Notes under the pieces: generated by a model
The model's database searches: none
What the model was told of the DNA's origin: nothing
Seen by the model: only the letters and a program-made list of their open reading frames with translations
Translations under genes and position numbers: made by a program
Source: a virus
Length of the DNA stretch: 34,164 nt
Virus record (IMG/VR): IMGVR_UViG_3300024520_000282
Coordinates: 1 to 34,164 of that record
Direction: 5' to 3' (one strand)
Shown: in pieces, positions 2 through 33,401 of the stretch
Layout of the letters: every line of letters begins with the position of its first letter
Position numbering within the stretch: position 1 is the stretch's first letter

Positions 2-661
2 TTTTATTCAGCCATTTCTTGGGCTGGGAATAACGATATTTATATAACTCAAACGGGCACAGGTCTAACTTTAACAATTGACCAAATTGGTGCCACTAAT
101 ACAATAGGTACAAGTGGTACTAGAGCTGTTATATCGGGCACCAGTATGACGGTGGACTTAGATCAAATAGGTTCTAGCAACAGCATTGTGGCTAGTATTC
201 TACAGGGTAATTCTTCCAGTTGGACTTACAGTAATACAGGTTCTAGTGCTTCAGCTACTTTCGCAGTGGGAGCAACAGGAGATGTAGCAGGGTCAGATTT
301 TGATTGGACCGCTACAGGGGGAGATGGAAACGATTTAATTTTTACCCAGGGTTCTGCTGCTACAGCAACTTCAGGAAACCAAGATTTTTCAATTACAGGA
401 GCTTCTAATAACTTAAATGTTAAATGTGAGGTCATAGGTTGTATAAATAATTGGACTGTTTCTGGAAACTCAAACGATATAGACACTGTGCAAACAGGGG
501 CTAATGATCACGCAATTACTGTTAATCTAACAGGCAGCTCAATGGATATTGATATTGACCAGACTGATGCCACAAGCACAAATGTAGCTAATTTATTACT
601 ACAAAGTAGTGGTGGATCAGGAAGTTCAGTCAATATTGACCAATGCGCCAGTGGCTGTTAA
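2..661 (+). CDS. Curlin-repeat-like protein, 5' end missing (partial)
   Basis: The reading frame is open from the first bases of the window, so the gene starts upstream; the Met at 146 is only an internal codon. The visible part is low in charge and rich in Ser, Thr, Gly, Asn and Gln. It has recurring short beta-strand units of the type N-x-I-x-I-x-Q-x-G (DIYITQTGTG, TIDQIGATN, DLDQIGSSN, DIDIDQTDA, NIDQC), the pattern of curlin repeats in CsgA/CsgB amyloid subunits. It ends in a Cys-containing tail (IDQCASGC). By family analogy it would be an exported, amyloid-forming or adhesive surface protein; any signal peptide lies outside the window. Its stop overlaps the start of the FecR-domain gene by 19 bases, implying translational coupling. 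It could instead be another beta-solenoid adhesin or a virion fibre. Confidence 0.7.
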   Translation, partial: FYSAISWAGNNDIYITQTGTGLTLTIDQIGATNTIGTSGTRAVISGTSMTVDLDQIGSSNSIVASILQGNSSSWTYSNTGSSASATFAVGATGDVAGSDFDWTATGGDGNDLIFTQGSAATATSGNQDFSITGASNNLNVKCEVIGCINNWTVSGNSNDIDTVQTGANDHAITVNLTGSSMDIDIDQTDATSTNVANLLLQSSGGSGSSVNIDQCASGC

Positions 662-1725
662 TACTATTTTTTGCTACTAATGCTTACTCTGAGATAGGAG
701 AAATATCGGAACTTAGGGGTAATGGAGAAATCCTAAGACAAGCAGGTGGAGACAAACTTCTTGCAGAGCTTGCTTTAGATATTCTTTCTTATGATAGTAT
801 ATTTACTGGTAATGGGCGCATCGCTATTGAATTTATTGATGAGTCTATTATAAAGCTGACAGAACATTCCAAAATTGTCATAGACGAATACATATACGAC
901 CCTGACCCATCTAAAAGCAAACTAGCCCTCAATATGGCTAGTGGTACTGCTCGTTTTATAACAGGCGCACTAGGAAAGATAGATAAGAAAAACATATCTA
1001 TTAGAACTCCATCAGCAAACATAGCTATAAGGGGTACAGATTTTACTACAACAGTTGATGAACTTGGCAGGAGTTTGGTCATATTATTACCTGATGCAAA
1101 TGGAACCACCTCTGGAGAAATAGCTGTAGAAACGTGGTCAGGCACGGAAATTCTTAACAAACCCTTTCAAGCTACAATGGTTTCTACCTTTGAATCAAGA
1201 CCTACCAAAGCAGTTGTATTAGGTGGCATTACGTTGGGATTAATAGACAATATGTTAATCATCAATCAACCGCCAGAGGTAACTGAAGCGATAGAAGAAC
1301 AACAAGCGGAATCAAAGACTGAATTGGATAAAGACTTCTTTGAAGAAGGTAATGATTTAGAGAAAGATTACTTGGAAATTGAAGAAGAAATCAGTCGCTT
1401 GGATATAGATTTGTTAAGTTTTGATTTTCTAGTTGATCTATTAGCAATGGTGGAAGCAGGCTCTAAAAAGAAAACTGAATCAGGAGGAGAGTTAGACGGA
1501 ATAAAGTTAATGGGCATTGTGCCTGGATTTGATCCAGTTTATCAAACTTATTCTTTTGTGGAAGGCGAACACTTATATTTAGTTCATCAGGGCAGCAATA
1601 CATTCGACATTGGTTTAGATAAATACGCAGCAACTTATTTGAATATAAATACAGCAGGAATCATAATGGAGATAGAGGTTAATGGTGCAGGTGACAATAC
1701 TATTATTATTTTTCAGTCTCCTTAG
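643..1725 (+). CDS. FecR-domain secreted protein
   Basis: This 360-residue protein begins with a signal peptide (about residues 1-16, MRQWLLILFFATNAYS). A FecR-type domain follows at about 17-185: the segment around FIDESIIKLTEHSKI, then SGTARFITG, then TPSANIAIRGTDF near residues 122-134, which is the typical signature. The second half is acidic, with a helical Glu-rich stretch around residues 210-260 and a beta-like C terminus. FecR domains sense or relay signals in the periplasm, and stand-alone FecR proteins often sit next to CHASE2 cyclases in bacteria, as here two genes downstream. The start lies inside the preceding curlin-like gene and the 3' end overlaps the next gene by 44 bases, so all are probably translated from one message. 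The domain call is firm; a sensory partnership with the cyclase is inference. Confidence 0.8.
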   Translation: MRQWLLILFFATNAYSEIGEISELRGNGEILRQAGGDKLLAELALDILSYDSIFTGNGRIAIEFIDESIIKLTEHSKIVIDEYIYDPDPSKSKLALNMASGTARFITGALGKIDKKNISIRTPSANIAIRGTDFTTTVDELGRSLVILLPDANGTTSGEIAVETWSGTEILNKPFQATMVSTFESRPTKAVVLGGITLGLIDNMLIINQPPEVTEAIEEQQAESKTELDKDFFEEGNDLEKDYLEIEEEISRLDIDLLSFDFLVDLLAMVEAGSKKKTESGGELDGIKLMGIVPGFDPVYQTYSFVEGEHLYLVHQGSNTFDIGLDKYAATYLNINTAGIIMEIEVNGAGDNTIIIFQSP

Positions 1726-2485
1726 TTGTAGCGTTTTTGCAGGTGATAACCTGATTACCCTACAAACAAAAGGAAGTGGCTCTACTATAACAATTAAACA
1801 AACTGGGAACAGCAACACCACAGGTATTTATTGTGGGTTAGGCAGTTTTGATAATTCATTGGTGAACACTCATACTTGCGACAATGCCACCATTACCGCA
1901 ACAGTAATAGGCAACTTAAATATAGTTTATTTACAGTCGGTATGGTCTAACCATACAGGGCAAAGCTGGATAACAACTGTTGACGGAAATGATAATTATG
2001 CAGTTATAGACATGGATGAAGATGACAACACTTCAACCATTATTCAAGACGGAAATGATAACGATGCTTGGATTTTAGGCTCTGGAGACAATAGTGTTTA
2101 TAAAATAGAGCAGTTAGGAGATGATTATTACGCCAAGATTTATGCTTTTTCAGATAATTCTGATGTTTGGATTACCCAAGAGGGCACAGGAGATCATAAT
2201 GCTTATGTTCTTAACTACTCAGGTGGAGATAATAACTCTACTAGATTAATTCAAAAGGGATCGGGAGTAAAAGATGCAGATGTATATTTTTACAGTGGGG
2301 CTGATGATAATGACGTTAATTTAACACAACAAGGAAACGGCTCACATACTGCATATATGAGATTTTATACTACGGATTATGATGTAACTGTAATTCAAAA
2401 AGGTTCATCCAATCAATCTTATTCAGCTCAATTTAATTGTACTGGCGGTGGTTGCGATAAAACTATTTCAATAACCCAACAATGA
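1682..2485 (+). CDS. Secreted curlin-repeat-like protein
   Basis: This 267-residue protein has a clear signal peptide at residues 1-20 (hydrophobic core ILLLFFSLLSCSVFA), followed by about eleven loose repeats of roughly 20-25 residues. They are rich in Asn, Asp, Gly and Gln: TIKQTGNSN, TTVDGNDN, IIQDGNDND, KIEQLGDD, WITQEGTGDHN, RLIQKGSG, NLTQQGNGSH, TVIQKGSSN, SITQQ. The alternation I/V-x-Q-x-G-x-x-N is the curlin-repeat pattern. Four Cys residues sit near the two ends and could form disulfides after export. The alternative Cys in the signal region (LLSC) is a poor lipobox. The gene overlaps the FecR gene by 44 bases, and its stop shares ATGA with the cyclase start. An amyloid or adhesin role is inferred; no curli export genes (CsgE, F, G) are visible in the window. 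Confidence 0.75.
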   Translation: MVQVTILLLFFSLLSCSVFAGDNLITLQTKGSGSTITIKQTGNSNTTGIYCGLGSFDNSLVNTHTCDNATITATVIGNLNIVYLQSVWSNHTGQSWITTVDGNDNYAVIDMDEDDNTSTIIQDGNDNDAWILGSGDNSVYKIEQLGDDYYAKIYAFSDNSDVWITQEGTGDHNAYVLNYSGGDNNSTRLIQKGSGVKDADVYFYSGADDNDVNLTQQGNGSHTAYMRFYTTDYDVTVIQKGSSNQSYSAQFNCTGGGCDKTISITQQ

Positions 2486-4251
2486 ACAAATGGTTAATTG
2501 GGGTGCTGATTACAGGCGCTTTAATGGTGCCTTTATTATTTAGCTGGAATGCTTTAGAAATAATTAAGCTCAAAACTTTTGATGCTTTAATTCCAGAGAA
2601 AGAAACATCAGGTTATTTCTCTATTCTTAATATAACTGAAGAAGATATTGCACGCGAAGGAGGCTATCCCTTACCTAGACAGCGATTAGCTGAAATACAG
2701 GTTGATTTATTAAACAAGGGAGCGATTGGAATAGGTTGGGTTATGGCTTTTCCACAGCCTGATCGACTCGGAGGAGATTCCATATTTGCAGAAACACTAG
2801 CCTATGCGCCCACTGTCTTGGCAATGTTTGAAAATAATAGTGGAGATTATCCCTCAACTACAGGCACTGTCATCATGGGAGAAGATCATGGAGGAATTGA
2901 TGCAGAAGGAGTTATTCAAAATATTGAGGTTCTTAAACAGAGCGCTAGTCAAGGCATTGCCGTAGCTAGAACAGAGGTTGATTCTTTAGTTAGAAGATTA
3001 CCCTTATTATTAAGAACTCCTGATGGATGGGTTTCCGCCTTTGGTACGGAGGTTTTAAAAATATTGGCTGGTGCAGACACTTATCTTATAAAAACAAACG
3101 ATAATGGTATAGAACAGATAAGAGTTAAAGGGCTGTCACCAGTCTCTACTGATTCACTAGGAAGAAAATGGATTAGTTGGGTAGATACACCACAAACAAA
3201 TTTAGAACAAATGGATGTTAAAGATAAGTTTGTTTTTGTCGGGTTCACAGCAAAAGGAATAATGCCTCAGTTAAGCACTCCTGCTGGATATTTAGAGCCT
3301 CACAAGATACAAGCGGCATTAGCAGAAAGCATATTAATTGAAGATAGTCCATACGTTCCAGATTGGGGTCTGGCAGCAGAAGTTTTAGCTTTTGGTGTTA
3401 CAGTGCTCTTAGCATGGTGTTTGATAAATATTTTTGGAATAACTTTAGGCATATCTTTTAGTGGTTTATTGTTTTTATTAACAGCAGGAAGTGGGTACTA
3501 TTTAATACAACAAGGACTTCTTATAGATGTTACTTGGACTTTAATGTCGCAATTTATCATAGCGTCCACAGCATTTTATTTACGTTTCAGAGAACAATAT
3601 AAGTTAAGACAGCAGATCAAAGCTCAATTTGGCAAGTATCTTGATCCAAGAATGGTTAAGAAATTACAGGATAATCCTGAGTTATGCCAAGTAAATGGCA
3701 AAAGAGTTGATTGTTCTATTATATTTACAGACCTTAGAGGATTTACTAGCTTATCTGAGTCAGTAGAGCCTGAAATGGTCACCTATATAATGAACAATGT
3801 TTTAGATGTGCAAGTAAAGGCAGCTAATAAATACTTTGGATGCACAGACAAATTCATTGGTGATGCGGGTATGTTTCATTGGAACACTATAATCCCACAA
3901 GAAGATCACCATACGTTAGCTTTAAAAGCTGCTAAAGAAATAGAAAATAACATAGACCAGTTAAATATTAAATTTAAAGAAGAAGGCATACCTGAGATAG
4001 CTATAGGTATAGGGGTTAATTCAGGTATTTGTATAGCTGGTAATTTTGGAGCAACAGATAGATTTTCATTTAGCTTAATCGGAGACCCCTGTAATGTAGC
4101 TGCTAGATTAGAGTCAAGCACGAAGATCGCAGGAGTAGGAGTGTTAATAGGCGAACAAACTGCAAAAAATACAGATTTTAAGTTACAATTATTAGAACCT
4201 ATTAAAGTTAAAGGTAAAGCTAAAGCATTAGAAGTTTATACATGGGCATAA
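2482..4251 (+). CDS. CHASE2-domain membrane-bound class III adenylate/guanylate cyclase
   Basis: This 589-residue protein converts ATP or GTP to a cyclic nucleotide. Order of parts: an N-terminal membrane segment (about 3-22), an extracytoplasmic CHASE2 sensor (about 25-285), two or three membrane segments (about 295-365), the linker QFGKYLDPRMVKKL, and a catalytic domain (about 395-589). Catalytic residues are present: metal Asp417 in FTDLRGFT and Asp461 in FIGDAGM, base-reading Lys457 and Asp535 in IGDPCNVAARLE, with Asn538 and Arg542 in the same motif. Lys/Asp at the purine-reading positions favours ATP. The motif after Asp461 (GMFHW) departs from the usual VMAFW. It starts within the stop of the curlin-like gene (ATGA) and ends three bases before the spanin gene. 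A CHASE2 cyclase beside FecR is a familiar bacterial arrangement, but its place next to phage lysis genes is unusual. Confidence 0.9.
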   Translation: MNKWLIGVLITGALMVPLLFSWNALEIIKLKTFDALIPEKETSGYFSILNITEEDIAREGGYPLPRQRLAEIQVDLLNKGAIGIGWVMAFPQPDRLGGDSIFAETLAYAPTVLAMFENNSGDYPSTTGTVIMGEDHGGIDAEGVIQNIEVLKQSASQGIAVARTEVDSLVRRLPLLLRTPDGWVSAFGTEVLKILAGADTYLIKTNDNGIEQIRVKGLSPVSTDSLGRKWISWVDTPQTNLEQMDVKDKFVFVGFTAKGIMPQLSTPAGYLEPHKIQAALAESILIEDSPYVPDWGLAAEVLAFGVTVLLAWCLINIFGITLGISFSGLLFLLTAGSGYYLIQQGLLIDVTWTLMSQFIIASTAFYLRFREQYKLRQQIKAQFGKYLDPRMVKKLQDNPELCQVNGKRVDCSIIFTDLRGFTSLSESVEPEMVTYIMNNVLDVQVKAANKYFGCTDKFIGDAGMFHWNTIIPQEDHHTLALKAAKEIENNIDQLNIKFKEEGIPEIAIGIGVNSGICIAGNFGATDRFSFSLIGDPCNVAARLESSTKIAGVGVLIGEQTAKNTDFKLQLLEPIKVKGKAKALEVYTWA

Positions 4252-4254
4252 AAA

Positions 4255-4650
4255 ATGAGTAAAATTTTACTAGGTGTAATTAGTGTTCTGTTACTGATAT
4301 GTGGTTTTCTTTACTATCAGAACAAAAATCTATACACATTAAATCAAGCTTATGAATTAAGAGATTCTGAGCAAAAGGCTGCAATAGAATCATTACAAAA
4401 TGATTTTACCCTTCAAACAGAAAGTTTATTAAATATACAGTCAAGAAATCAAGAGATAGAAGCAGAAATGAGTAGATACCTTGATATTTTTAACCGACAT
4501 AATTTAAGTAAATTGGCTGCTGCTAAACCAGGGTTAATAGAGTCAAGAGTAAACAATGGGACAAAAGATGTATTTGACAGTATCGAAGAAGCTAGTCGCA
4601 ATATTGATAATCTCGATGATGGCTTGCAGTTGCAGCCTAATACCAACTAA
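4255..4650 (+). CDS. Inner-membrane spanin (Rz-like)
   Basis: This 131-residue protein has one N-terminal membrane anchor (about 4-22, ILLGVISVLLLICGFLYY) and then a mostly helical, charged periplasmic part (about 30-110) with heptad-like spacing, as in Rz-type i-spanins. Such proteins pair with an outer-membrane lipoprotein and fuse the two membranes in the last step of lysis. The assignment rests on topology, size and setting: a lipoprotein gene is embedded out of frame in its 3' end and a lysozyme follows. It begins three bases after the cyclase stop. No sequence-level match to lambda Rz can be claimed by eye. No obvious holin gene is seen in the cassette. Confidence 0.7.
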   Translation: MSKILLGVISVLLLICGFLYYQNKNLYTLNQAYELRDSEQKAAIESLQNDFTLQTESLLNIQSRNQEIEAEMSRYLDIFNRHNLSKLAAAKPGLIESRVNNGTKDVFDSIEEASRNIDNLDDGLQLQPNTN

Positions 4651-4954
4651 AAAAGTTGAGATTGTAACTGCGCCTATAGAAAGAAAGATAGTTCAACCTA
4701 TCTTGCCTCGCGAAATAGACTTAAAAGAGCCTTATTGGTATGTTGTTTCAGAAAAAAATATAGATGAGTTTTTAGGCAGATTAGAAGAAGAACAAGGGCA
4801 GCTCGTATTCTTTGCCATGTCGGTTCCAGATTATGAGCTTATGGCATATAACATGCAAGAATTGAAGAGGTATATAAATGAACTTAAAGAAGTGGTTGTT
4901 TATTATAGGACAGTTACTACGAATACTTCATCAGAGAGAGAGGAGGAGCAGTGA
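4556..4954 (+). CDS. Outer-membrane lipoprotein spanin (Rz1-like)
   Basis: This 132-residue protein is encoded in a different frame from the i-spanin and overlaps its last 95 bases. It has a basic start, a hydrophobic run (KKLVAILIISMMA) and Cys at residue 24 in the context SMMAC, a plausible although imperfect lipobox. An equally likely start is the Met at 4568. The mature part begins with a Pro-containing linker, followed by a conserved-looking segment (DYELMAYNMQELKRYINEL) ending in VVVYYR, a pattern met in small lysis-associated proteins of marine phages. An embedded lipoprotein gene directly before the endolysin is the classic Rz/Rz1 layout. Its stop lies one base before the lysozyme ATG. 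Confidence 0.7.
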   Translation: MGQKMYLTVSKKLVAILIISMMACSCSLIPTKKVEIVTAPIERKIVQPILPREIDLKEPYWYVVSEKNIDEFLGRLEEEQGQLVFFAMSVPDYELMAYNMQELKRYINELKEVVVYYRTVTTNTSSEREEEQ

Positions 4955-4955
4955 T

Positions 4956-5414
4956 ATGAGCGATGGAAATAGGTCTATATCGGCAGAGGGAATGGCACTA
5001 ATAAAAAAGTTTGAAGGATGTAAATTAGAAGCTTATTTAGATGCTGTAAACGTACCTACAATTGCTTATGGAAGAACTAAAAATGTAAAAATGGGAGATA
5101 GTTGTACTAAAGAACAAGCAGATTCTTGGGTTGAAGAAGAGATGCAAGAATATGAAGGTTATATAAACAACCAAGTGAAAGTTGACTTAGAGCAATATCA
5201 ATTCGATGCTCTTGTTGCTTGGGTTTATAATTTAGGACCAACTAATTTAAAAAATTCTACTTTATTAAAAGTATTAAATGAAGGTAATTATAATGATGTT
5301 CCAGCACAAATAAAAAGATGGAACAAAGCTGGAGGCAATGTTTTGGACGGATTAATAAGAAGAAGAGAAGCAGAATCTTTGCTTTTCCAAGAAAAAGAAT
5401 GGTACAAGGTTTAA
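4956..5414 (+). CDS. Endolysin, GH24 lysozyme
   Basis: This 152-residue enzyme hydrolyses the glycan strands of peptidoglycan at lysis. The start at 4956 is chosen because a strong purine-rich ribosome site (GAGAGAGGAGGAG) lies just before it and the spanin gene stops at 4954; the same frame is open further upstream but would overlap that gene. The T4/P22 lysozyme triad is in place with exact spacing: Glu20 in KKFEGC, Asp29 in AYLD and Thr35 in PTIAYG. The C-terminal GH24 signature is also there (AGGNVLDGLIRRREAE). There is no signal peptide or N-terminal anchor, so release needs a holin not identified here. The typical TIGYGHT reads TIAYGRT. Confidence 0.93.
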   Translation: MSDGNRSISAEGMALIKKFEGCKLEAYLDAVNVPTIAYGRTKNVKMGDSCTKEQADSWVEEEMQEYEGYINNQVKVDLEQYQFDALVAWVYNLGPTNLKNSTLLKVLNEGNYNDVPAQIKRWNKAGGNVLDGLIRRREAESLLFQEKEWYKV

Positions 5415-5415
5415 T

Positions 5416-7281
5416 ATGCCTTTATCAAAATATAAATTTAGACCTGGTATAGATCGGGAAGGAACTAATTATAGCAACGAAGGCGGATGGTATTCTGCAG
5501 ACAAAGTTAGATTTAGAAGGGGCAAGCCAGAAAGAATAGCTGGATGGGAAAAAAATACGCTCGACTCTTTTACAGGCACTTGTAGAAATCTTTACTCTTA
5601 TAGAGATCAAGGACAAACTGATTATGTAGGAGCTGGCACTCATCTAAAATACTATGTATTACAAGGAGATGACTTTAATGACATTACTCCTATTAGAAAA
5701 ACATCTACAAACAGTATTACATTCGCTGCCACAGATGGCTCTTCAACTCTAGTTGTTACTGACTCATCTCATGGTGCAGTAGCTAATGATACTGTTACGT
5801 TTGCAGAAGCAGTTTCTTTAGGTGGAGTTGTTACAGCAGACGTTTTAAATCAAACTTATATAATAGTTAGAACATTAACTGTAAATACATATGAAGTCAC
5901 TGCAAAAGATACCTCTGGAGATACAGTAACCGCTAATGCTAGTGATTCTGGTAATGGCGGCTCTGCGGTAGATGGAGTTTACGAGATAAATGTTGGATTG
6001 GATGTTTATGTTAAAGGTACTGGTTGGGGGGCTGGAACATGGAGCGCTCTTACTTGGGGGTCAGTTAGTCCAATTTCTTCTTCAAGTCAATTAAGGTTAT
6101 GGTCTCAAGATAATTTTGGTGATGATCTAATTTCATGCATCAGGGGTGGTGGCGTTTACTATTGGGATGAAAGCGCAGGAGCTACCCAAAGAGCTGTGCC
6201 TTTTTCAGATTTAGGAAGTGCTAGTAATGTGCCAACATTAGGCTTGCAAATTATGGTTTCCGATGTAGATAAACATATTATTTGTTTTGGCGCTAATGCT
6301 ATTGGGGAGTCAGTTGTTAATCCGCTATTAGTTAGATGGTCTGATACAGAAAGTGCAAGCGATTGGACACCAACATCAACGAATCAATCGGGTGGCGTTC
6401 AATTATCACAGGGCTCTACAATAATTGGTGCTTTACAAACAAGACAAGAAATATTAATTTGGTCTGATGCAGGCTTAACCTCTATGCGATTTGTTGGAGA
6501 GCCCTTTATATTCTCATTTATAGAAGTTGCATCTGGTCCATCTTTAATATCGCCAAACTCAGCAGTCAGTGCAAATAATAAAGTTTATTTTATGGACAGA
6601 GGTGGGTTTTATGTTTATTCAGGCTCAGTATCTAGACTGCCCTGCACTGTATTAGATTATGTATTTTCTAATATAAATTTAGGTCAGCAGTTCAAATGTT
6701 TTGGAGCATCAGTAGAAAGTGCAAATGAAGTTATTTGGTTTTATCCATCCAAAGATAGCTTAGAAATAGATCGTTATGTTACTTATAATTATTTGGAAAA
6801 TGCGTGGTCAATTGGTACTACAGATGATGGATTTACAAGAACAGCATGGATAGAAGCTGAATCATTAGATTATCCTTTGGGTGCTGGAAAAACATCGGGC
6901 AGCAATACCAACTATCTTTATAATCAAGAAAAAGGGCATTCAAACGATGGCGGTGAATTTACTGCATACATAGAATCAAGTGACTTTGATCTTAATCCTG
7001 ATGGAGAAAGACTTATGTTTCTTTCTAAATTAATTCCTGATGTGGAATTTAGAGATCAAGATACAACTGATGATACTGTTACTTTTACAATAAAAGGAAG
7101 AAATTATCCTTTAGGTACTCTTTCAACATTACAGACAGTTAATGTAACACCTGAATCTACCTTTACTAACCTAAGAGCTAGAAGTAGACACGCTGCAATT
7201 AGAATATCAAATACCAGTATAAATTATGGTTGGCGAGTTGGAGATTTAAGATTAGAGATAAGACCTGATGGGAAAAGATAA
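5416..7281 (+). CDS. Virion structural protein, P22 gp10-like DNA-stabilisation/tail accessory protein
   Basis: This 621-residue protein begins YKFRPGIDREGTNY followed by NEGGWYSADKVRFRRGKPE. That opening is shared by phage proteins usually annotated as packaged-DNA stabilisation or tail-hub proteins related to P22 gp10. The remainder is beta-rich, with many aromatic, Gly and Thr residues and an inserted Thr/Val/Asp-rich segment around residues 95-200. P22 gp10 forms part of the short tail that closes the portal; 621 residues is longer than gp10. It starts one base after the endolysin stop, and its stop shares a base with the next ATG (TAATG), so it begins the late structural run. The family call is from remembered pattern, not alignment. 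Confidence 0.65.
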   Translation: MPLSKYKFRPGIDREGTNYSNEGGWYSADKVRFRRGKPERIAGWEKNTLDSFTGTCRNLYSYRDQGQTDYVGAGTHLKYYVLQGDDFNDITPIRKTSTNSITFAATDGSSTLVVTDSSHGAVANDTVTFAEAVSLGGVVTADVLNQTYIIVRTLTVNTYEVTAKDTSGDTVTANASDSGNGGSAVDGVYEINVGLDVYVKGTGWGAGTWSALTWGSVSPISSSSQLRLWSQDNFGDDLISCIRGGGVYYWDESAGATQRAVPFSDLGSASNVPTLGLQIMVSDVDKHIICFGANAIGESVVNPLLVRWSDTESASDWTPTSTNQSGGVQLSQGSTIIGALQTRQEILIWSDAGLTSMRFVGEPFIFSFIEVASGPSLISPNSAVSANNKVYFMDRGGFYVYSGSVSRLPCTVLDYVFSNINLGQQFKCFGASVESANEVIWFYPSKDSLEIDRYVTYNYLENAWSIGTTDDGFTRTAWIEAESLDYPLGAGKTSGSNTNYLYNQEKGHSNDGGEFTAYIESSDFDLNPDGERLMFLSKLIPDVEFRDQDTTDDTVTFTIKGRNYPLGTLSTLQTVNVTPESTFTNLRARSRHAAIRISNTSINYGWRVGDLRLEIRPDGKR

Positions 7282-14298: not shown

Positions 14299-17200
14299 AT
14301 GTCTATATATAAAGCTCCAGACGGAACTGAATATAATATACCGATTGATCCTGGAGAAAGAGATTATTTTGCTAAGGCAGTGCAATCTGCTTATGGCGAA
14401 GATATAAATCAAACAACAATACTAGGACAAGCTAAAGAGGCTGCAAAAGCATTTCCAAGAGAAGTTGTATCAGGTTTCCAGAGAGTTCCTACAGGTCTTG
14501 CTCAATTATTTGACATTGGTAACGATAACCCAATGACAAAATCTTTCGAGAGACAACAAGAAGAATGGAGAACTGAGGGTCCTTTTGCTGGTGATCCAGC
14601 TTATCAAGATTTATACAGCACTAAAGTTGCAGGTGGTTTAGGTTCTTTCGTTCCCTTTTTAGGCGCAGGCATAGCTGGAAGAGCTTTAGCTGCTAGGGGA
14701 GTGGGTGCAAATCTACCTAGATTTTTAAAACCACAATGGACTGTGCCTTACACTTTTGCTGGACCTTCTGGTATCAGTGAACAAAGTGAGTTTTTACAGC
14801 AAGCTAGAGATGAAGGTAAAGAAGTAGGACCAATAGCAGAAATTTTTGCAGAGCTTGGTGGAGCTGCAATAGGAGCTACGGAACTACTGCCAGTAGAAAG
14901 ATTGCTAAAAAGAGTGCCAAAAAATGCGTTGAATTATCCTGAAGTAAGAAGGATGCTTCGATCTGCGATACAACAAGCTGGAATAGAAGCTGGTCAAGAA
15001 ACCTTTGCTGGTATATCACAAAGACTCTTAGCGCGTGGCTTATACAGTGATGATTTGCCTTTAACAGAAAGTGTTTGGGATGACTTTACAGTAGGCGGTG
15101 GTGTTGGCTTTATAGCTGATGTGGTTGTCAACTCTGTATCAAGAAGAAGCAGAGGTAGAAATTATTTAAAAGATGCTGAACAACGTGCAAGAGATAACAG
15201 AGTTAATCTTAATTCAGAAGGTAAATTTGAAAGAGGAGTTGCCCAAGGAACTCTTCAAGAGGTACAAGATCAACCTGTTGTAACTAAGCCAGAAATACCA
15301 ATCCCTGCTTTAGTGGGTATTCCGCCCAGCTTAGAAGTTATCCAAACGCCTGATAGCAAATTTTCTATTGTCGATTTAAACGCAGTAGAAAACCCAGTAT
15401 TAAAGCAATTTGAAGGCGAATCTGATGCTCTTATATTTAAAAATAAAGAGCAAACAAATTACGAAAGAAAAAAACTTAAAGTTGATATAGACAATGCGGC
15501 TTATGCTTTGGGTATGCCAGATAGTGCGTCTGCCCTAACTGTTGGTAGCACCATTCTTGATCCAAACATTTCTCAAATTAACTTACAGAGCTTAATGGAA
15601 TTTGATTCCAAGCTTTCTGAAGATAATAAAAAACAATTTGCTGCTGAAAGAAAAGAAGCTGGATGGTTTGGAAAGAATGTTCCAAGCGAAATGATTGAGC
15701 GTAAAAGGTCTTTTCTTAAAAAAACCAGCAACTATCTTAATAAAAAAGGATTAGACCTAAAAGCCAGCTATTCAATGGCAGAAGCAAAGAAAGCTTTATC
15801 TGTAAAAGATTATAATTTCCTTCTAAACGATATGTCTAATATTGTTTTTCAGCAATCTGAATCAACTGGAGAACCCTCTATAACTGCTGATAAAGAAAAG
15901 CCTAATGTAAATCTAAAATACATTAAGGATATAGCAGCCTCCAAAAATATTGATTTAGATTTCAAAGACCCTGCGGTTAGATACGCAGCCCTTCAGTGGA
16001 CTGGCACCGCTAATATGTCAAAAACGAGGAATCGTGGCGTAAAAGAATTATTCTTAGCACGACTTCACTCTATCCCCAAGTTCAATAACCGAACTAAATT
16101 CCCAGACTTTAGACCTAGAACATACACGGCACAAGATGTTGCCAATTTTGTTGCGTCTATGGGAAGCAGAAACGTCCAATTTACTGTTAATGATCTTTTA
16201 AAGGTTGGGGTTACAGCTAAAGATAAAACTGCTACAGAACAATTTGTTAATGATTTAGTTGATAGTGGCAGAGCAGAAAAGATTAAAAATACTAATCAAT
16301 ATCAGATTAGAAAGAACCATGAGTTTGATATTGCCAGGAGAGCAGAGGGTTTTGATGAGACTCCAGCAGAGTTTGGCAACAGACTTAGAAACGAAGGAAA
16401 ACTTCCAGAAGAAACCATACAACAATTAGTCGAACAAGAAACTACAAGACAAAGAAGAGTGTTGCCCCCAGAAGAAGTTGAATCTAAAGCAATTAAATTT
16501 AACGAGGCGGTAGAAGAAGGCAGAACAAACGTATTTGCCAGAGAGCTTAAAAAGATATTAGAGGAAAGAGGGTTAAGAGAAACAGGAGTTATTGTTAGCA
16601 ATGATATTCTATCTTCTTCAGCGTTAGCTAGAACCCCACAAGGAGAGATCGTCTTTGATCCGAGAGGGCTAAGACAAACAGCAACAGAGGGTGCTGTCGA
16701 GGGAGAATATGATAAGAACACTGATATTATATTTCTTTCATTAAATGCCGTTAATCCAGATGGAAATGCCTCAACAGATCAGATAAGAGAAAGATTACAC
16801 AAAGTTTTAGACCATGAAATGATACACGCCTTGCGTGAAAAGGATTTGATTACTGAAAAGGAATATCAATATCTAAGAAAAGAAGTTAAGCGAAAAAAGG
16901 TGCCTCAAGGATTTGATCCAAGCTTTAAAGGTCGCTCATTCTATCAACGTGCAAAAGCGATGAATGAAAAGAGAGGAGATTTAGTAGGTCGAAACGAACA
17001 GTTTAAAGAAGAGCTTTATGTAGAAGAAGCTATTGCAGAAATGTATAGATCAAGAAACTTTAAACCTGACATAGCACCTAAGGCAGAAGGTATCTTTAAT
17101 AAGATAGTTGAGTTCTTTAGGTCTATGGGTCAAGCAATGCGTACTTCTGGATTTAAAAAAGCATCAGATGTGTTTTCTGAAATTGAACAAGGAAGAGTTG

Positions 17201-20200
17201 GCGCAAGAGGAAGAGGGGAAATAAGGACTCTACGAGAGCTAGACAAACTAGCACCCGAAGCAGTTGATGCTCCTATCATAGAAGAGTTTAGAGAAGGTGA
17301 AGCGCCTGTTAATGAACCTACTGACGTAGTTACTATAGGCGAAAGCGGAGGGATCGCTACTCCTGTAACTACATTTGAAGATGTCGAAGCTGATATTGAT
17401 CCTATAACTGGGGTTGTGATTTCTCCTAGTGGTTTAGGTCGTACTGGAAGCTCAATATTTAATTTTAGAGGACAAACCAAAGAACAACTAGAAGCTCAAA
17501 GAGCAGCCATAATACAAGAGTTTGGTTATGGTCATGTAAAGAGTGAAGATGTTTTAACATGGCTGTCTAAAAATGCACCAAGCAGAGACTATAAAGTTAT
17601 CGCTGATAGGCTTTTAACGCAAGTTAAAAAACTAAGGCGAATGAAAAAAATAGATTTTCAGTTTCGTATTATTACAAAAGGCACTGACCGCTTATCAATT
17701 CCAGGTCATACAGGAGGATCGCTTAATTGGCATGGAGTTTCTTATGCTCCTTTTTCTTATGAAGGCGGGACTAGACAACAAGTTTATATTGCTGACAGAG
17801 GAAACCCAAGAGGGGAGACAAGAGCAAAAGTAGATGGCGTTAATCTTGAAACAGTATTGCATGAGCTAGTTCATCAAGCAACGCAAGCCGCAACTTATGA
17901 CTTTAATATTGATGCTAAAACAAAAGAAAATTTAGCAGAATTGGAGAAAATAAGAAAACGAGTAAGAGAAGAAATTAATGCAAGAAAACGAGCTGGCGAG
18001 AATATAGATCATTATGTTCAATACGGCACTAAAAACGTACAAGAATTATTAGCAGTAGGGTTTACTGACAGAGAGTTTCAAAAGTTTATGGAATCAATAC
18101 CATATTCTCCTAGAGGTAAAAAATCATTATGGGATAAGTTTACTGAAACTTTAAGGAAGCTTCTTAATATTCCAGCCAAGCAAGGAACTGCGTTTTCAGA
18201 GTTTTTATTGCAAGCTGGAAGAATTACTAACCTTAGCCAAAAACAAATTGCACCTCTTCTTGGAGGGCGGGAAATGTCAGGGCGTGTCGATTTCGGTCCC
18301 CCTGTTGCTGATTACGAAATAAGAAAAAGATTTACTCCTGAACAGGAACAAGTCCTAGACCAGCTAAGTGCTTTAGAGCAAAAAATAATTCCACTTGAAT
18401 CAGAGAAGAATCAAGAGGGATCGTTAATGAGTTCGGCTAATCTAAGAAAATTAAATATTAGATTAAGCAAACTCTACGCTGAAAAAGATTCACTACAACA
18501 ACAGCTTGATAGATTACCTGAAGCAGAGCCTGAACAGGTGCCTTTATTCTCAAGAGGAACAAGATATGTAGACGACAGGAACACCAATGAGAACATACAG
18601 CTCAGAGAAGCCACAGAGAAGGCTGTAGAGGTTGTTAAGAAAACTCCTAGAGGTGAGGTGCCATATTACAATGTAAACGCCTCTGATGTAGCTTTAAAGG
18701 CTGCCATCGACTTCAATGAGGATGCCACTGCAAAAGCGCCTGATGACATACCTAATTTTTCCAGAGCGCCATTACCAGGCTTTGTTCAAGAAATAGCTGA
18801 CAGAATAGGACAGCCTGAACATAAACCGACTAAATCTTCTGGGGCAAGATTAATAGATATAGCTAGTAATCCTGTGCCTAATGTAAGAAAAGCATTTAAA
18901 GGATTTAGAACAGCTATTGTTGATAAGTTAGACCCAATCGTTAAAAGGGAAATGCAGTTTGCTCAAGAAGATGAACAAACATTGCTATTAAATAATACAG
19001 CAGATACGGGTGCAATAGCTGCACTTAGATTAGCTGATAGAGCAAGGGGAATTTTTCAGGGATTGCTTATGCGTGGTTATGCTAGCGATACAATTGACGG
19101 AGTAAGCTCATTAACCAATGTTAAGCAATTAGAAATAAGCACAAGATACAATCCATTTATAGATGGCAACACTGGAACTGGTGGGTTAATGCAAATAACA
19201 GCGCCTCTTTTTTCTGATCCAAGTGTTGATTTAGAGGGTGTGTTTGCGGTTTACGGAAAGCTTAAAAGACAAAAGAGTTTAAACGAACAGGGCAAAGAGA
19301 TAGCCTCACCGATTACTTCGCAAGATATAGAAGCTATTACAGAAATAGAAGCCCGCTTTCCTCAAGTGGTAGAGGTCTATAACAATTATCAATTATGGAA
19401 CAATCAATTGATTACATTTGCTGAATCTAAGGGTTTATTAAGTCCAGAACAATCTGAAATGTGGAGAGAACATTCCAGTTATTATCCGTTCTATAGAGAC
19501 ATGGTGGATGAAACAGGTGATATTACTGCACCAAAAATAGGTGGGGGTATGTTGCCTAATAATCCTTTGAATATAATAATGAAGGGTTCCGAAAAAGAAA
19601 TAAATGTTCCGCCATTAGAGGCTATAGCAAGAAACTCATTGTCTATATTAACTGCCTCCATGAAAAATGATGGTGCAGCAAAACTGATGAGAGACTTCGT
19701 TGCAAACGGAATGGCTCAAAAGGTTTCGGCAAAAGAAGCCTCAGGAAAAATCTCAATACCAGTATTTGAAAATGGTAGAAAAGAATTTTACTTGGTTGAT
19801 GATATAGAGGTCTACGAAGCCATGAGAGGTATTGGCGGTGTGGGTACAGACTTTATTACAAAAGTCTTACAAATCCCTTCAGGAATATTAAGAGATACAG
19901 TAACCCGTGATCCAGGATTTATCATGGTCAACTTACTCAGAGACACTCTCTCTAGTGCTGTTACTGCTGGTAATATTGGATTGGGCGAAGGAAACTTTAC
20001 GCCCATTATAGATACATTTAAAGGCATGGTTAGTGATATGTCAGACTTAGAAAAGTTTGGCATTATTGGTGGTTATGATTTTGCTAATGATGAAGGTAGT
20101 GTTGTCGACTTAATGGCTAGAGCCAGAAGAGCTGAAGGACTAACACCCGATAACGGAATAACAGCTCAAGATGCCTTCTATAAAATATGGGATGGCTTAG

Positions 20201-21489
20201 GTGGTTTAACAACCAAGTCAGACGGGGCTACTCGTTTAGGTGTTTATAAGGCGGTTTATAACAACTTGATTGAAAGGGGTTATACAGAAGCGCAAGCACA
20301 ATCTGAAGCCGCCTATCAAGCGCTAGAGATTATAAACTTTGGACGCAGGGGAAACTCTGTCTTGTTCAGGTATATAACATCAGCTATTCCTTTCTTTAAT
20401 GCAAGAATACAGGGTCTTGATGTCTTGTGGCGTTCAGCATCAGGGCAATATTCTGCAATAGAAAAACAACGAGAAGGGGAGACCCTAAAGGACGTTCAAA
20501 AAAGAATACAGAGGGGTTTCCTCACAAGAGGCGGTCTTATGTTTGTAATTACTGCTATTTATTATGCAATGGTTTCTGATAGAGATGAATACAAAGAAGT
20601 AAAACGGGAAATTAGGGATGATAACTGGCTAATACCAACTCCATTTGATTACACAATTAAGCTACCTATTCCTTTTGAGGTTGGTATGTTGTTTAAAGCG
20701 ATACCCGAAAGGCTTATAGATGAGTTTTTAGGTAGACAAGTAGAGGCAAACCCGTATGAATCTTTGAGAAGGCAACTCGGAACATCAGCTAATGTACCCT
20801 TTATAAGCGGAGACATAGGAATACAGGCGGTTAAGCCTTTATTTGAAGCTGTTACTAATAGAAACTCTTGGACTAACACAGAGATAGTTCCGTACTACAA
20901 ACAAAAAGAATTGCCCGCATACCAGGCTCGGCAATCAACAAACGAAATTGCGAGGCTCATAGGCGAAGGTTTGAATATCTCTCCAATGAAGATAGAGCAC
21001 GTCTTAAAAGGTTATACAGGGACTCTAGGAGGCTACTTACTAGACCTTATGGATGTAACAGCTAGGAGAGTGACTGGCACGCCTCTTATGCCAGCTAACA
21101 TCAACAGCATTCCATTAATCAAAAGGTTTTTAATTGACAATGACAAGGGCGGAGGACTGCAACAATCTTTCTATGAATTAAGAGAGGAAGTTATGGGAGC
21201 TACTGCCACCATTAATGATCTAAGAAATCAGGGCAGAATGGATGAATTAGCCGCTTACAGAGAGCATCATAAGGGCTTGCTTAATGCGAAGGGTCAGGTT
21301 AATGCTATTAATAGGTTTATGACAAATTGGCGAAGGCAAAGAGACAGGCTTTTAAGAAGAACAGATTTATCCGCTATGGTTAAAGCAGATATGATTAGAG
21401 ACTTAGAAACAAGAAGAGATAAGCGATTAGCTATTGTTCCTGCGCTCAGACAAAAAGCTGACGTTCCAAGAGTTTCTTTGGGTAATTAA
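14299..21489 (+). CDS. Giant polyvalent virion protein with two zincin motifs and an LPD38-like region
   Basis: This 2396-residue protein is by far the largest here. Residues about 95-215 are hydrophobic and Gly/Ala-rich. A first metallopeptidase motif H839-E-M-I-H843 is followed by a candidate third ligand in VEEAIAEMY (Glu909/910). A second, H1188-E-L-V-H1192, is followed by NVQELLAVGF (Glu1249). A coiled coil lies at about 1354-1412. The segment from about 1540 to 2150 resembles the large-polyvalent-protein domain LPD38 (LADRARGIFQGLLMRGYA). A hydrophobic helix sits at about 2075-2092 (GGLMFVITAIYYAMV). Such proteins are packaged and ejected with the DNA; peptidase domains may process host or virion proteins. 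It closes the + strand late block. Its last 63 bases overlap a convergent gene. Confidence 0.75.
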   Translation: MSIYKAPDGTEYNIPIDPGERDYFAKAVQSAYGEDINQTTILGQAKEAAKAFPREVVSGFQRVPTGLAQLFDIGNDNPMTKSFERQQEEWRTEGPFAGDPAYQDLYSTKVAGGLGSFVPFLGAGIAGRALAARGVGANLPRFLKPQWTVPYTFAGPSGISEQSEFLQQARDEGKEVGPIAEIFAELGGAAIGATELLPVERLLKRVPKNALNYPEVRRMLRSAIQQAGIEAGQETFAGISQRLLARGLYSDDLPLTESVWDDFTVGGGVGFIADVVVNSVSRRSRGRNYLKDAEQRARDNRVNLNSEGKFERGVAQGTLQEVQDQPVVTKPEIPIPALVGIPPSLEVIQTPDSKFSIVDLNAVENPVLKQFEGESDALIFKNKEQTNYERKKLKVDIDNAAYALGMPDSASALTVGSTILDPNISQINLQSLMEFDSKLSEDNKKQFAAERKEAGWFGKNVPSEMIERKRSFLKKTSNYLNKKGLDLKASYSMAEAKKALSVKDYNFLLNDMSNIVFQQSESTGEPSITADKEKPNVNLKYIKDIAASKNIDLDFKDPAVRYAALQWTGTANMSKTRNRGVKELFLARLHSIPKFNNRTKFPDFRPRTYTAQDVANFVASMGSRNVQFTVNDLLKVGVTAKDKTATEQFVNDLVDSGRAEKIKNTNQYQIRKNHEFDIARRAEGFDETPAEFGNRLRNEGKLPEETIQQLVEQETTRQRRVLPPEEVESKAIKFNEAVEEGRTNVFARELKKILEERGLRETGVIVSNDILSSSALARTPQGEIVFDPRGLRQTATEGAVEGEYDKNTDIIFLSLNAVNPDGNASTDQIRERLHKVLDHEMIHALREKDLITEKEYQYLRKEVKRKKVPQGFDPSFKGRSFYQRAKAMNEKRGDLVGRNEQFKEELYVEEAIAEMYRSRNFKPDIAPKAEGIFNKIVEFFRSMGQAMRTSGFKKASDVFSEIEQGRVGARGRGEIRTLRELDKLAPEAVDAPIIEEFREGEAPVNEPTDVVTIGESGGIATPVTTFEDVEADIDPITGVVISPSGLGRTGSSIFNFRGQTKEQLEAQRAAIIQEFGYGHVKSEDVLTWLSKNAPSRDYKVIADRLLTQVKKLRRMKKIDFQFRIITKGTDRLSIPGHTGGSLNWHGVSYAPFSYEGGTRQQVYIADRGNPRGETRAKVDGVNLETVLHELVHQATQAATYDFNIDAKTKENLAELEKIRKRVREEINARKRAGENIDHYVQYGTKNVQELLAVGFTDREFQKFMESIPYSPRGKKSLWDKFTETLRKLLNIPAKQGTAFSEFLLQAGRITNLSQKQIAPLLGGREMSGRVDFGPPVADYEIRKRFTPEQEQVLDQLSALEQKIIPLESEKNQEGSLMSSANLRKLNIRLSKLYAEKDSLQQQLDRLPEAEPEQVPLFSRGTRYVDDRNTNENIQLREATEKAVEVVKKTPRGEVPYYNVNASDVALKAAIDFNEDATAKAPDDIPNFSRAPLPGFVQEIADRIGQPEHKPTKSSGARLIDIASNPVPNVRKAFKGFRTAIVDKLDPIVKREMQFAQEDEQTLLLNNTADTGAIAALRLADRARGIFQGLLMRGYASDTIDGVSSLTNVKQLEISTRYNPFIDGNTGTGGLMQITAPLFSDPSVDLEGVFAVYGKLKRQKSLNEQGKEIASPITSQDIEAITEIEARFPQVVEVYNNYQLWNNQLITFAESKGLLSPEQSEMWREHSSYYPFYRDMVDETGDITAPKIGGGMLPNNPLNIIMKGSEKEINVPPLEAIARNSLSILTASMKNDGAAKLMRDFVANGMAQKVSAKEASGKISIPVFENGRKEFYLVDDIEVYEAMRGIGGVGTDFITKVLQIPSGILRDTVTRDPGFIMVNLLRDTLSSAVTAGNIGLGEGNFTPIIDTFKGMVSDMSDLEKFGIIGGYDFANDEGSVVDLMARARRAEGLTPDNGITAQDAFYKIWDGLGGLTTKSDGATRLGVYKAVYNNLIERGYTEAQAQSEAAYQALEIINFGRRGNSVLFRYITSAIPFFNARIQGLDVLWRSASGQYSAIEKQREGETLKDVQKRIQRGFLTRGGLMFVITAIYYAMVSDRDEYKEVKREIRDDNWLIPTPFDYTIKLPIPFEVGMLFKAIPERLIDEFLGRQVEANPYESLRRQLGTSANVPFISGDIGIQAVKPLFEAVTNRNSWTNTEIVPYYKQKELPAYQARQSTNEIARLIGEGLNISPMKIEHVLKGYTGTLGGYLLDLMDVTARRVTGTPLMPANINSIPLIKRFLIDNDKGGGLQQSFYELREEVMGATATINDLRNQGRMDELAAYREHHKGLLNAKGQVNAINRFMTNWRRQRDRLLRRTDLSAMVKADMIRDLETRRDKRLAIVPALRQKADVPRVSLGN

Positions 21490-28995: not shown

Positions 28996-29290
28996 TTCTT
29001 GGGTCTCCGTATATAATTTCTGGACTATCTATTACCTCGCCAACAGCAACGCTTTCACGACCTGTTTGCCAATACCTGTTTAGTTCAAGACTTTCTATGG
29101 CATGAGCGAGATAATGTTCATTTGCTTGTAGTAAAGGAGAGTCTAATAATGTAATAGCAAAAGCCATTGCATCTACTTCACTTTCAAAAAGCCAAACATA
29201 GTGTTTCCAATCCGCATGAATCTTATAGCTTTTGGGGTTATCGGGTTCTGGGTTTATTATTTCAAACGTGTGTCTTATTACAGCAAACAT
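28967..29290 (-). CDS. Hypothetical protein
   Basis: This 107-residue protein starts MFAVIRHTFEIINPEPDNP. It has a strand-helix core (HYVWLFESEVDAMAFAITLL) and an acidic middle, and ends in a basic, Asn-rich tail (RNEKRTNNIH). No family is recognised. A weak ribosome site (AAAGGAA) precedes it. The upstream region to about 29600 would hold its promoter; TTGCTA and TAATAA spaced by 16 bases near 29307-29334 on the - strand is one candidate. Confidence 0.6.
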   Translation of the reverse strand: MFAVIRHTFEIINPEPDNPKSYKIHADWKHYVWLFESEVDAMAFAITLLDSPLLQANEHYLAHAIESLELNRYWQTGRESVAVGEVIDSPEIIYGDPRNEKRTNNIH

Positions 29291-29351
29291 AAAAATTCCT
29301 TTAGTAATGGCTTATTATTGTATAACAAAATGCTAGCAAAGGGAAAGCCCA

Positions 29352-29367
29352 TGTTCCACATGGAACA
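29352..29367. promoter_or_regulatory. parS-like palindrome
   Basis: TGTTCCACATGGAACA has perfect seven-base arms and differs by one central base from TGTTCCACGTGGAACA, a recognised chromosomal parS (ParB-binding) sequence. ParB/Spo0J centromere sites have this 16-base form across many bacteria. The change falls at the central CpG and may weaken binding. No parA or parB gene is visible in the window, so any ParB would be the host's or lie elsewhere. Confidence 0.45.
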
Positions 29368-29418
29368 CCTATAGCTGTGTTGCAAATACTACGAGCTTTA
29401 AACCTGGTCTCCTGGGCA

Positions 29419-29446
29419 CATATAAATATTTACTGGTATATTATAT
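29419..29446 (+). promoter_or_regulatory. Recurrent motif, + oriented copy
   Basis: CATATAAATATTTACTGGTA is the + strand counterpart of the motif seen at 22264, 29805, 29905 and 33353 on the - strand. It is followed by TATTATATTT. ATATAA and TTATAT arms flank its core. It points toward the terminator at 29601, leaving a short possible transcript with no convincing ORF. Confidence 0.35.
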
Positions 29447-29600
29447 TTAAAGGGTTTCAGGACGATTGTGGTGTTTTTTGGCGTTGTTTAGCCGTCTTTT
29501 CCCAGGCAAATAATACAGCAGTCGGTGGACTATCTATCGCTTTTTTTATATATATGAATCGTGTTAAAAAATTGAAATTAGAATGATTGGAACAAAAAAA

Positions 29601-29624
29601 AGGGCAGTTCCGAAGAACCGCCCT
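29601..29624 (-). terminator. Rho-independent terminator with UUCG tetraloop
   Basis: On the - strand the RNA is AGGGCGGUUC-UUCG-GAACUGCCCU-type, a ten-pair stem with one G-U pair, an ultrastable C(UUCG)G loop and a run of about eight U directly after. The + strand fold has a mismatch at the G-U position and a weaker U-run, so it is mainly a leftward terminator, possibly working both ways. Confidence 0.85.
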
Positions 29625-29805
29625 AACTTTTTGCCTTACCTACCGAGTAAGGACTTATAATCTAACTAGATAGATTGGAGGATAACCATTACTGGTTAAA
29701 TTAATACTAATTGATACGCTTGCAAAATGCAAGACCATAAACACAATATGTTGTATGCCGATCTACAAGCGTATACAAGATGTTGTGGTTTCTGACAAAT
29801 CTCGA
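29601..29805 (-). ncRNA. Candidate structured small RNA between motif and terminator
   Basis: Reading leftward from the motif at 29805-29826 to the terminator at 29601, about 200 bases carry no plausible ORF but several hairpins. These are a closing stem AUACGCUUG/CAAGCGUAU (29714-29722 with 29766-29774), an inner stem CAUACAACA with UGUUUAUG (29736-29757), AACCA-GUAA-UGGUU near 29690-29704, AUCUA/UAGAU near 29660-29676, and CCUUAC/GUAAGG near 29635-29653, then the terminator. An alternative hairpin CUUGCA/UGCAAG competes with the closing stem. No known RNA family is recognised; it is not a tRNA. Confidence 0.4.
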
Positions 29806-29826
29806 TCCTAGTAAATAATATTTTAA
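29805..29826 (-). promoter_or_regulatory. Recurrent AATATTATTTACTAG motif, copy 2
   Basis: On the - strand this reads TTAAAATATTATTTACTAGG. It lies about 200 bases upstream of a - strand terminator with no ORF between, which makes it the most likely start region for the candidate small RNA. Confidence 0.4.
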
Positions 29827-29848
29827 CGTCCTGCTAACCAGATTTTTT

Positions 29849-29870
29849 TGTTAATAATCTGTTAATAATC
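29849..29870. repeat. Tandem 11-base repeat
   Basis: TGTTAATAATC occurs twice head to tail, followed by a partial third (TGTAGAT). CAGATT just before (29839-29844) pairs with AATCTG in the first junction. The stretch is very AT-rich. It could be iterons or a binding site between motif copies 2 and 3. Confidence 0.4.
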
Positions 29871-29904
29871 TGTAGATGAACGGCTGAGGATCAACAAAAT
29901 CAAT

Positions 29905-29926
29905 AGACTGGTAAATATTATTATTC
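29905..29926 (-). promoter_or_regulatory. Recurrent motif, copy 3 (variant)
   Basis: On the - strand this reads AATAATAATATTTACCAGTC. The core TATTTAC is kept while TRG becomes CAG. It is 100 bases upstream of copy 2 and just left of the terminator at 29995, in position to restart leftward transcription. Confidence 0.35.
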
Positions 29927-29994
29927 CTACTCATCTTCCAGGAGACGTTATTTTCTCCTGTAGTATTTGCTTTCACAAATTTTAGGCGAAAAAA

Positions 29995-30028
29995 AAAGGC
30001 GATAACTACCTAAGTAGCTACCGCCTTT
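29995..30028 (-). terminator. Rho-independent terminator after the small-gene cluster
   Basis: The - strand RNA forms a 15-pair stem (AAAGGCGGUAGCUAC with GUAGUUAUCGCCUUU) around a UUAG loop, with two G-U pairs that would be mismatches in + strand RNA. The U-run continues for six more bases after the stem. It follows the stop of the 48-residue gene at 30036 by only a few bases. Confidence 0.88.
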
Positions 30029-30035
30029 AATTTAT

Positions 30036-30182
30036 TTATCCCTCCTTTAGTATCTCGTAATCAAACCAACCCTGAGCCTCGTAAACACCATTTTTAAATG
30101 CCTCAAGCTCTTCTAAGGACTTGAAAGAATAGGTTTTAGTTTCTTCTCCCATTTCTCCCCATTTAATAGTTATCTTATACAT
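30036..30182 (-). CDS. Small hypothetical protein (48 residues)
   Basis: This short gene encodes MYKITIKWGEMGEETKTY and then SFKSLEELEAFKNGVYEAQGW, ending in EILKEG. It starts inside the end of the upstream gene, with a strong AGGAGGAG ribosome site four bases before the ATG, and a terminator follows its stop. Alternating strand and helix suggest a small folded protein. No family is recognised. Confidence 0.65.
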   Translation of the reverse strand: MYKITIKWGEMGEETKTYSFKSLEELEAFKNGVYEAQGWFDYEILKEG

Positions 30183-33246: not shown

Positions 33247-33303
33247 AATAATCCTCCAATTAGATTAGATAAAGTTGCTGTTTCAAACTTTCGTTATCCT
33301 CAG

Positions 33304-33321
33304 TAGGAATACACATTCCTA
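33304..33321 (-). promoter_or_regulatory. Hairpin element H2 in the leader of the DUF3150-like gene
   Basis: The - strand RNA is UAGGAAU-GUGU-AUUCCUA (seven pairs), followed by CUGAGGAUAACGAAAG. Loop and downstream sequence match H1 at 30831-30850, while the arms differ with pairing kept. It lies 58 bases before the gene start and about 32 bases downstream of motif copy 4. Confidence 0.5.
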
Positions 33322-33344
33322 TACAGCGAGAAGGCTTGAAGGGC

Positions 33345-33378: not shown

Positions 33379-33401
33379 AACCCCCCAAACTTCAGGTTTT
33401 C

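Follow-up and report, generated by a model that had tools for sequence, protein, structure and literature searches.

Positions 2 to 4251 of a 34,164-nucleotide stretch of DNA from a marine phage (IMG/VR record IMGVR_UViG_3300024520_000282, positions 1 to 34,164; the whole stretch is referred to here as the window) carry overlapping genes for a curlin-repeat protein, a FecR-domain protein, a second curlin-repeat protein and a CHASE2 adenylyl cyclase. These genes belong to a curli, or type VIII secretion system (T8SS), module of the kind already described in pelagiphages (PMC9599517, PMC7029224, PMC9004378). The module is real and conserved, it sits here in a backbone without close isolates, and the comparative facts reported below sharpen its likely function and origin. 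We put at about even the chance that an infected cell makes curli-like fibres before it lyses, with FecR, CHASE2 and the cyclase reporting on export through cyclic AMP (cAMP). New with respect to the published modules are this backbone, a slot in the lysis region that also takes alternative cargo, rare csgF-csgG-curlin-FecR-cyclase operons in Caulobacterales, related phage cyclases beside type I secretion genes with a FecR-headed adhesin, and a curlin-like strand that ends the curli-type FecR proteins.

The window cuts a complete curli module

The module genes contained in the window are the following.

2..661, + strand: curlin-repeat secreted protein 1 (CsgA/B-like), 5' end lost at the window edge; Pfam Curlin_rpt, E 0.0037
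643..1725, + strand: FecR-domain secreted protein; Pfam FecR, 6e-11; PupR CSSD-like predicted fold
1682..2485, + strand: curlin-repeat secreted protein 2, predicted amyloid-type beta-solenoid; Pfam Curlin_rpt, 6e-10; 8c50-like predicted fold
2482..4251, + strand: CHASE2 membrane adenylyl cyclase (class III); Pfam CHASE2, 5e-24, and Guanylate_cyc, 2e-14; CyaB (3r5g), E 5e-43

An earlier note, made from the sequence alone, had described these four open reading frames (ORFs) as overlapping by 19, 44 and 4 bases and as separated from the next gene, at 4255, by 3 bases, all of which is exact. The protein identities that it had proposed were borne out by Pfam profile searches, the match of curlin 1, made up of three stretches, falling under the curated cut-off.

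The left edge of the window cuts the module, which starts about 1.9 kb further left, as seen in L002, a separate contig from the same virus population that is 99.88% identical to the window across 14,078 bases. The leftward gene order of L002 is nuclease, transmembrane (TM) protein, two small TM proteins (97 and 84 amino acids), CsgF, CsgG and the start of curlin 1, and its extra left-hand module genes are equally tightly spaced. Because L002 extends past the window edge, the order of the complete module could be defined as small TM protein-small TM protein-CsgF-CsgG-curlin-FecR-curlin-cyclase, of which the window holds the right-hand two thirds. CsgG of L002 was clearly recognized (Pfam CsgG, 7e-55), whereas CsgF scored 25.0 bits against a Pfam cut-off of 25.8 (2.3e-5) but matched phrog_35372 at 1.7e-31, its position and family being conserved. 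Full-length curlin 1 has 229 amino acids and a signal peptide (L002:3509-4198). The module thus combines CsgG, CsgF and a curlin subunit with FecR and adenylyl cyclase in the fixed downstream order of phage T8SS modules.

The earlier note had proposed looking for the same gene order in related phage contigs, and the order was indeed kept in 40 of the 41 testable loci, the single exception being a spurious short match. Since, in addition, dN/dS was 0.03 to 0.11 in every module gene, the module is not a chance arrangement.

Fold and conserved residues of the curlins, FecR protein and cyclase

Curlin 2 matched the solved curlin 8c50 (E 1.6e-11) and E. coli CsgA (8enq, E 0.0035) in profile searches. 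Its predicted model (pLDDT 82.8, pTM 0.85) had the curli subunit 8c50 as best fold match, with Z 27.1, followed by unrelated solenoids at about 16; this curlin fold was overlooked by Foldseek alone and detected with VIA-align. The curlin 1 family displays a conserved Q/G/N ladder, and two marks of a CsgA-type curli subunit, a Q-G-N repeat ladder and, as predicted, a curlin solenoid fold, are both present in the module.

The FecR protein consists of an N-terminal signal-like segment, a FecR/PupR-type domain, a linker and a beta-rich C-terminal part, and ends in a curlin-like strand, TIIIFQSP. The predicted fold of its FecR domain superimposes on the PupR CSSD (6ovk) with Z 15.6 and a root mean square deviation of 2.6 over 137 aligned residues. 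A terminal curlin-like strand was found in 44 of 45 curli-type FecR proteins, which are related to each other in sequence, compared to a mean of 1.6 after shuffling. Of the attributes of a FecR/PupR sigma regulator, the protein has the FecR (CSSD) domain, but neither the TM helix nor, with Pfam, the cytoplasmic anti-sigma domain was found in it, and no FecI/FecA-like partner gene was seen among the surrounding genes examined.

Class III cyclases use two metal-binding Asp residues, a Lys/Asp pair for purine specificity and an Asn/Arg pair in the transition state. In the phage cyclase, D417, K457, D461, D535 and R542 were kept in 66 of 66 viral sequences and N538 in 65 of 66, the Lys/Asp pair being of the adenylyl type. 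The active site, which the earlier note had called intact, is thus intact in these residues, and the enzyme is predicted to be an adenylyl cyclase. Its nearest solved relative is CyaB.

Related cyclases accompany type I secretion in phages and adhesin-type FecR proteins in bacteria

A related cyclase and two small TM proteins occur on L133, a contig from a marine metagenome-assembled genome, and on many viral contigs, together with TolC, HlyD, an ABC-transporter fragment and a large secreted protein. Type I genes were present in 39 and curli genes in 12 of the 81 loci checked with that cyclase family, three of them having both. Where complete, the large type I secreted proteins mostly have a FecR domain at the N terminus and cadherin or RTX repeats after it. 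Phage-like contigs with the whole set (TolC, HlyD, FecR-cadherin/RTX adhesin, CHASE2 cyclase and two small TM proteins) are L133:3-8253, L253, L265, L288, L291 and L293. In both systems, FecR is thus linked to the polymer that is exported, at the N terminus of the adhesin in type I secretion and by a curlin-like tail in the curli module. A T4-like label for the large type I secretion contigs was dropped, T4 gp23 being absent there. Searches of the open-access literature yielded nothing pertinent on cadherin adhesins secreted by phage type I systems, or on adhesins with FecR domains. Two further observations concern these loci: the ABC-transporter gene at L133:3950-4693 (about 247 amino acids) matched in its membrane part only, no ATPase domain being found, and L249 (1926-8890) and L312 each encode two CHASE2 cyclases, one near type I genes and one near FecR-curlin-CsgG-CsgF genes on the opposite strand.

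That bacteria do have FecR beside CHASE2 cyclases, as the earlier note had stated, is documented by the FecR/CHASE2 adenylyl cyclase/phosphodiesterase/TPR clusters of Campylobacterota (PMC9239204), and by the FecR protein, with a median length of 1760 amino acids, that we found upstream of 46 of the 72 best-matching bacterial CHASE2 cyclases. Three of these FecR proteins were examined and carry RTX, laminin-G/cadherin-like or VWA domains. The periplasmic CHASE2 domain is the natural partner of FecR, and the two may be in direct contact. Since the Sinorhizobium cyclase CyaD1 makes cAMP constitutively when it lacks CHASE2 (PMC5498481), CHASE2 would fit as a restraint on the cyclase.

Phage backbone and the slot occupied by the module

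An HTVC023P-type backbone was rejected for the window, a partial genome, because only 2 of its 37 proteins matched HTVC023P, at 25 to 30% identity. The 621-amino-acid structural (stabilization) protein is 37% identical to that of phage DSL-LC04 and about 30% identical to those of HTVC023P-type phages, and the lineage is without a close isolate. Relatives of the cyclase are encoded by at least 282 viral stretches. Cyclases with 90 to 92% amino acid identity were seen in L005 and L051, whose backbone somewhat resembles that of HTVC023P, with a 90-base stretch matching at 78% and an adaptor protein at 32%; at about 72% cyclase identity, L064 and L077 have HMO-2011-like replication genes in their backbone. 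Because related cyclases are found in differing backbones, the unit moves between phages. FecR-cyclase units at that 72% level were seen in L064, L076, L077 and L080, in a backbone with an HMO-2011-like ribonucleotide reductase and a pelagiphage-like DNA polymerase; the unit of L080 also carries CsgG and curlin.

In the window, the cyclase gene is followed by these flanking genes.

4255..4650, + strand: Rz-like inner-membrane spanin, outside the module; phrog_739, 2e-13
4556..4954, + strand: Rz1-like lipoprotein spanin, overlapping Rz; phrog_812, 2e-12
4878..5414, + strand: phage lysozyme/endolysin; Pfam Phage_lysozyme, 2e-45
5416..7281, + strand: virion structural ("stabilization") protein, backbone; phrog_3287, 4e-73

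The link to lysis drawn in the earlier note stands as far as adjacency is concerned, Rz, Rz1 and lysozyme genes following directly in the window and spanin, lysozyme or stabilization genes following the cyclase in 66 of the 74 loci that extend more than 1 kb beyond it. The link is, however, specific to this backbone: in the HMO-2011-like lineage, convergent DNA-replication genes follow instead, so the lysis genes are neighbours and not obligate partners.

Relatives of the backbone were also collected through the stabilization protein; 47 had module genes upstream, 14 had none and 20 were too short. In several of the module-free relatives (L219:4510-7817, L222:3296-6576 and L232:4699-8362), the slot that separates the lysis genes from the nuclease/TM genes is filled by a secreted Asn/Thr-repeat protein (363 to 402 amino acids) and a nidogen-like secreted protein (740 to 823 amino acids), with neither FecR nor cyclase. 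The slot therefore takes alternative secreted-protein cargo. "Nidogen-like" is our reading of the sequence; this protein matched nothing in the phage collection and, at a significant level, no Pfam family. The gaps between nuclease/TM and lysis genes in L223, L233, L235 and L243 were listed with these loci and read less closely.

Elsewhere, the window encodes a 2396-amino-acid protein with an LPD38 domain (14299-21489), to which known phages give partial matches only, and, at 30945-34163, an unusual set for a phage: a DUF2201 metallopeptidase/VWA protein beside a 324-amino-acid protein and another ORF whose start resembles a MoxR-type AAA ATPase, without a Pfam match. About 0.9 kb (29290-30175) is nearly ORF-free and has no Rfam match; no Rfam family was found in the window as a whole, and 14 loci examined for clues to the host contained no tRNA.

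Caulobacterales operons and the origin of the unit

Three Caulobacterales genomes, two of them from Caulobacteraceae, carry csgF-csgG-curlin(-curlin)-FecR-CHASE2 adenylyl cyclase among ordinary chromosomal genes (L088/L171, L170 and L173; the further Caulobacterales genome on a 705-kb contig). These operons contradict the published statement that FecR and adenylyl cyclase are outside bacterial T8SS operons. They turned up in 2 of 299 and 2 of 398 genomes, and among 385 genomes sampled across the class none encoded this type of FecR; either such operons are rare in bacteria or sampling has been uneven.

In FecR and CsgG trees, the window lineage grouped with Caulobacterales (99/97 and 92/90 support) and not with the myophages that were sampled; both trees lack a root by wider bacterial sampling, and the myophage group of the FecR tree includes type I adhesin FecR domains and long branches. 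In the cyclase tree, the window lineage formed its own clade on a very long branch. The published transfer from myophages to podoviruses need not hold for the window lineage, to judge from these trees, and the Caulobacterales operon would locate the likely bacterial source of the unit.

Proposed function and alternative explanations

If infected cells do build curli-like fibres, the curlins would leave the cytoplasm through the Sec machinery of the host during infection, cross the outer membrane by way of CsgG and CsgF, and assemble into amyloid-type fibres on the cell shortly before lysis. Such fibres could gather cells and virions into clumps close to new hosts, or keep competing phages out. 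FecR may be anchored by its curlin-like C-terminal strand where the fibre system ends in the periplasm, and may touch the CHASE2 domain of the cyclase, in which case cAMP output would report export or fibre state. A surface-protein role fits because module-free relatives hold another secreted pair in the same slot, and control of surface structure, one of the possibilities raised in the earlier note, appears to be the best reading of this conserved and functional-looking unit. Several points weigh against it: no CsgE homologue was seen, the model of the FecR protein is of modest confidence (pLDDT 61.8), its C-terminal strand motif is short and comes from related sequences, a literature search yielded no cAMP receptor for the host, and clumping was absent from Melnitz infections under the conditions tested (PMC9004378). 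More tentatively, FecR, the CHASE2 cyclase and the two small membrane proteins might be a portable sensor of surface-fibre export that plugs onto either curli type VIII or RTX/cadherin type I secretion, FecR being physically part of the exported polymer, as adhesin N terminus or curlin-like tail, and cAMP signalling a completed coat. Comparison with the type I cassettes and bacterial operons suggests a role, open to testing, for the FecR and cyclase genes, which had been hitherto unexplained, and if infected ocean bacteria are indeed coated with amyloid, phages would alter aggregation and encounter rates of plankton cells in addition to death rates.

Phage-made cAMP could instead be the main effector and reprogram host transcription or metabolism, the secreted proteins serving as input only. 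The invariant catalytic residues and the retention of related cyclases with two different export systems speak for this, but the alternative cargo of the same slot comes without FecR or cyclase and no host receptor for cAMP was found, so that we consider it unlikely. We find it rather improbable that CsgG/CsgF form a gated pore that helps to time lysis, as proposed for Melnitz (PMC9004378), with curlins and cyclase secondary or vestigial. The position of the module directly before the spanin and lysozyme genes, with adjacency to these or to the stabilization gene in 66 of 74 loci, and the weak resemblance of the small single-TM upstream proteins to holins (phrog_4898, E 0.012) would suit such a pore. 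It is weakened by the other backbones and by the swap of cargo in the slot: the cyclase unit lies away from lysis genes in the HMO-2011-like lineage and in HTVC008M and Melnitz, complete lysis genes are present without such a pore, module-free relatives keep spanin and lysin genes and carry other secreted proteins in its place, the curlin and FecR genes are complete and under purifying selection, and homologues exist in bacteria outside any phage.

One suggestion in PMC9599517, that FecR acts as a regulator responding to iron and that iron or cofactors are taken up through CsgG as a pore, draws on the name and fold of the FecR domain. It leaves the curlins unexplained, and the domain stands alone with a curlin-like end strand or is fused to adhesins; together with the missing anti-sigma domain and FecI/FecA-like gene noted above, this makes the suggestion very doubtful. 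Finally, the window begins inside a gene, as might be expected if its left 4 kb were host DNA brought in by an assembly join or a prophage border. This origin, with the unit absent from related phages, was what the earlier note had named as its own refutation. It is practically excluded, since L002 is 99.88% identical for 14 kb across the supposed border and the stabilization gene is preceded by module genes in 47 loci; together with the wide distribution of the cyclase among viral stretches, this supports a phage origin.

Comparison with known systems

The FecR (CSSD) fold, as predicted, is shared with the FecR/PupR cell-surface-signalling regulators; unlike these, the phage FecR protein is secreted and not membrane spanning, and neither an anti-sigma domain nor a FecI/TonB receptor partner was seen. 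In the Campylobacterota clusters and in Rhizobiales adhesin-like loci, a FecR-domain protein adjoins a CHASE2 class III cyclase as in the phage, but FecR there is within a large adhesin-type protein, or beside a phosphodiesterase and a TPR protein, and curli genes are absent. The Caulobacterales operon has the same five-component order as the phage module, and compared with the podo-type phage set its FecR is about 40% and its CsgG about 48% identical, but it lacks the small TM proteins and a second curlin between FecR and the cyclase.

The closest counterparts are the published phage modules, and the unit itself is therefore not new: a curli operon was discussed for pelagimyophages by Zaragoza-Solas et al. 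in 2020 (PMC7029224), and a T8SS partner auxiliary metabolic gene module with FecR and adenylyl cyclase was described for HTVC023P-type podoviruses by Wittmers et al. in 2022 (PMC9599517), who also reported expression of phage curli genes in metatranscriptomes. These modules and that of the window have in common the order CsgF, CsgG, curlin, FecR, optional second curlin and cyclase, with one or two small proteins upstream; the module of the window differs in its location, with a nuclease/TM-protein pair on one side and the spanin-lysozyme genes on the other. In PMC9599517, one or two short "histidine kinases" precede CsgF. In every module that we inspected, this position was occupied by one or two proteins of 84 to 116 amino acids that combine a single TM helix with a coiled coil (phrog_18771), in which Pfam detected no kinase domain, so the published "histidine kinases" are probably these membrane proteins, mislabelled. 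This would be the second point of the literature to be corrected here, besides the presence of FecR and cyclase in bacterial curli operons. In the phage collection, phrog_18771 is confined to the Pelagibacter phage HTVC008M and the Methylophilales phage Melnitz, whose curli regions are annotated in a gene order identical to that described here, including both small TM proteins, but lie away from the lysis genes and encode cyclases 30 to 32% and FecR proteins 33 to 38% identical to those of the window.

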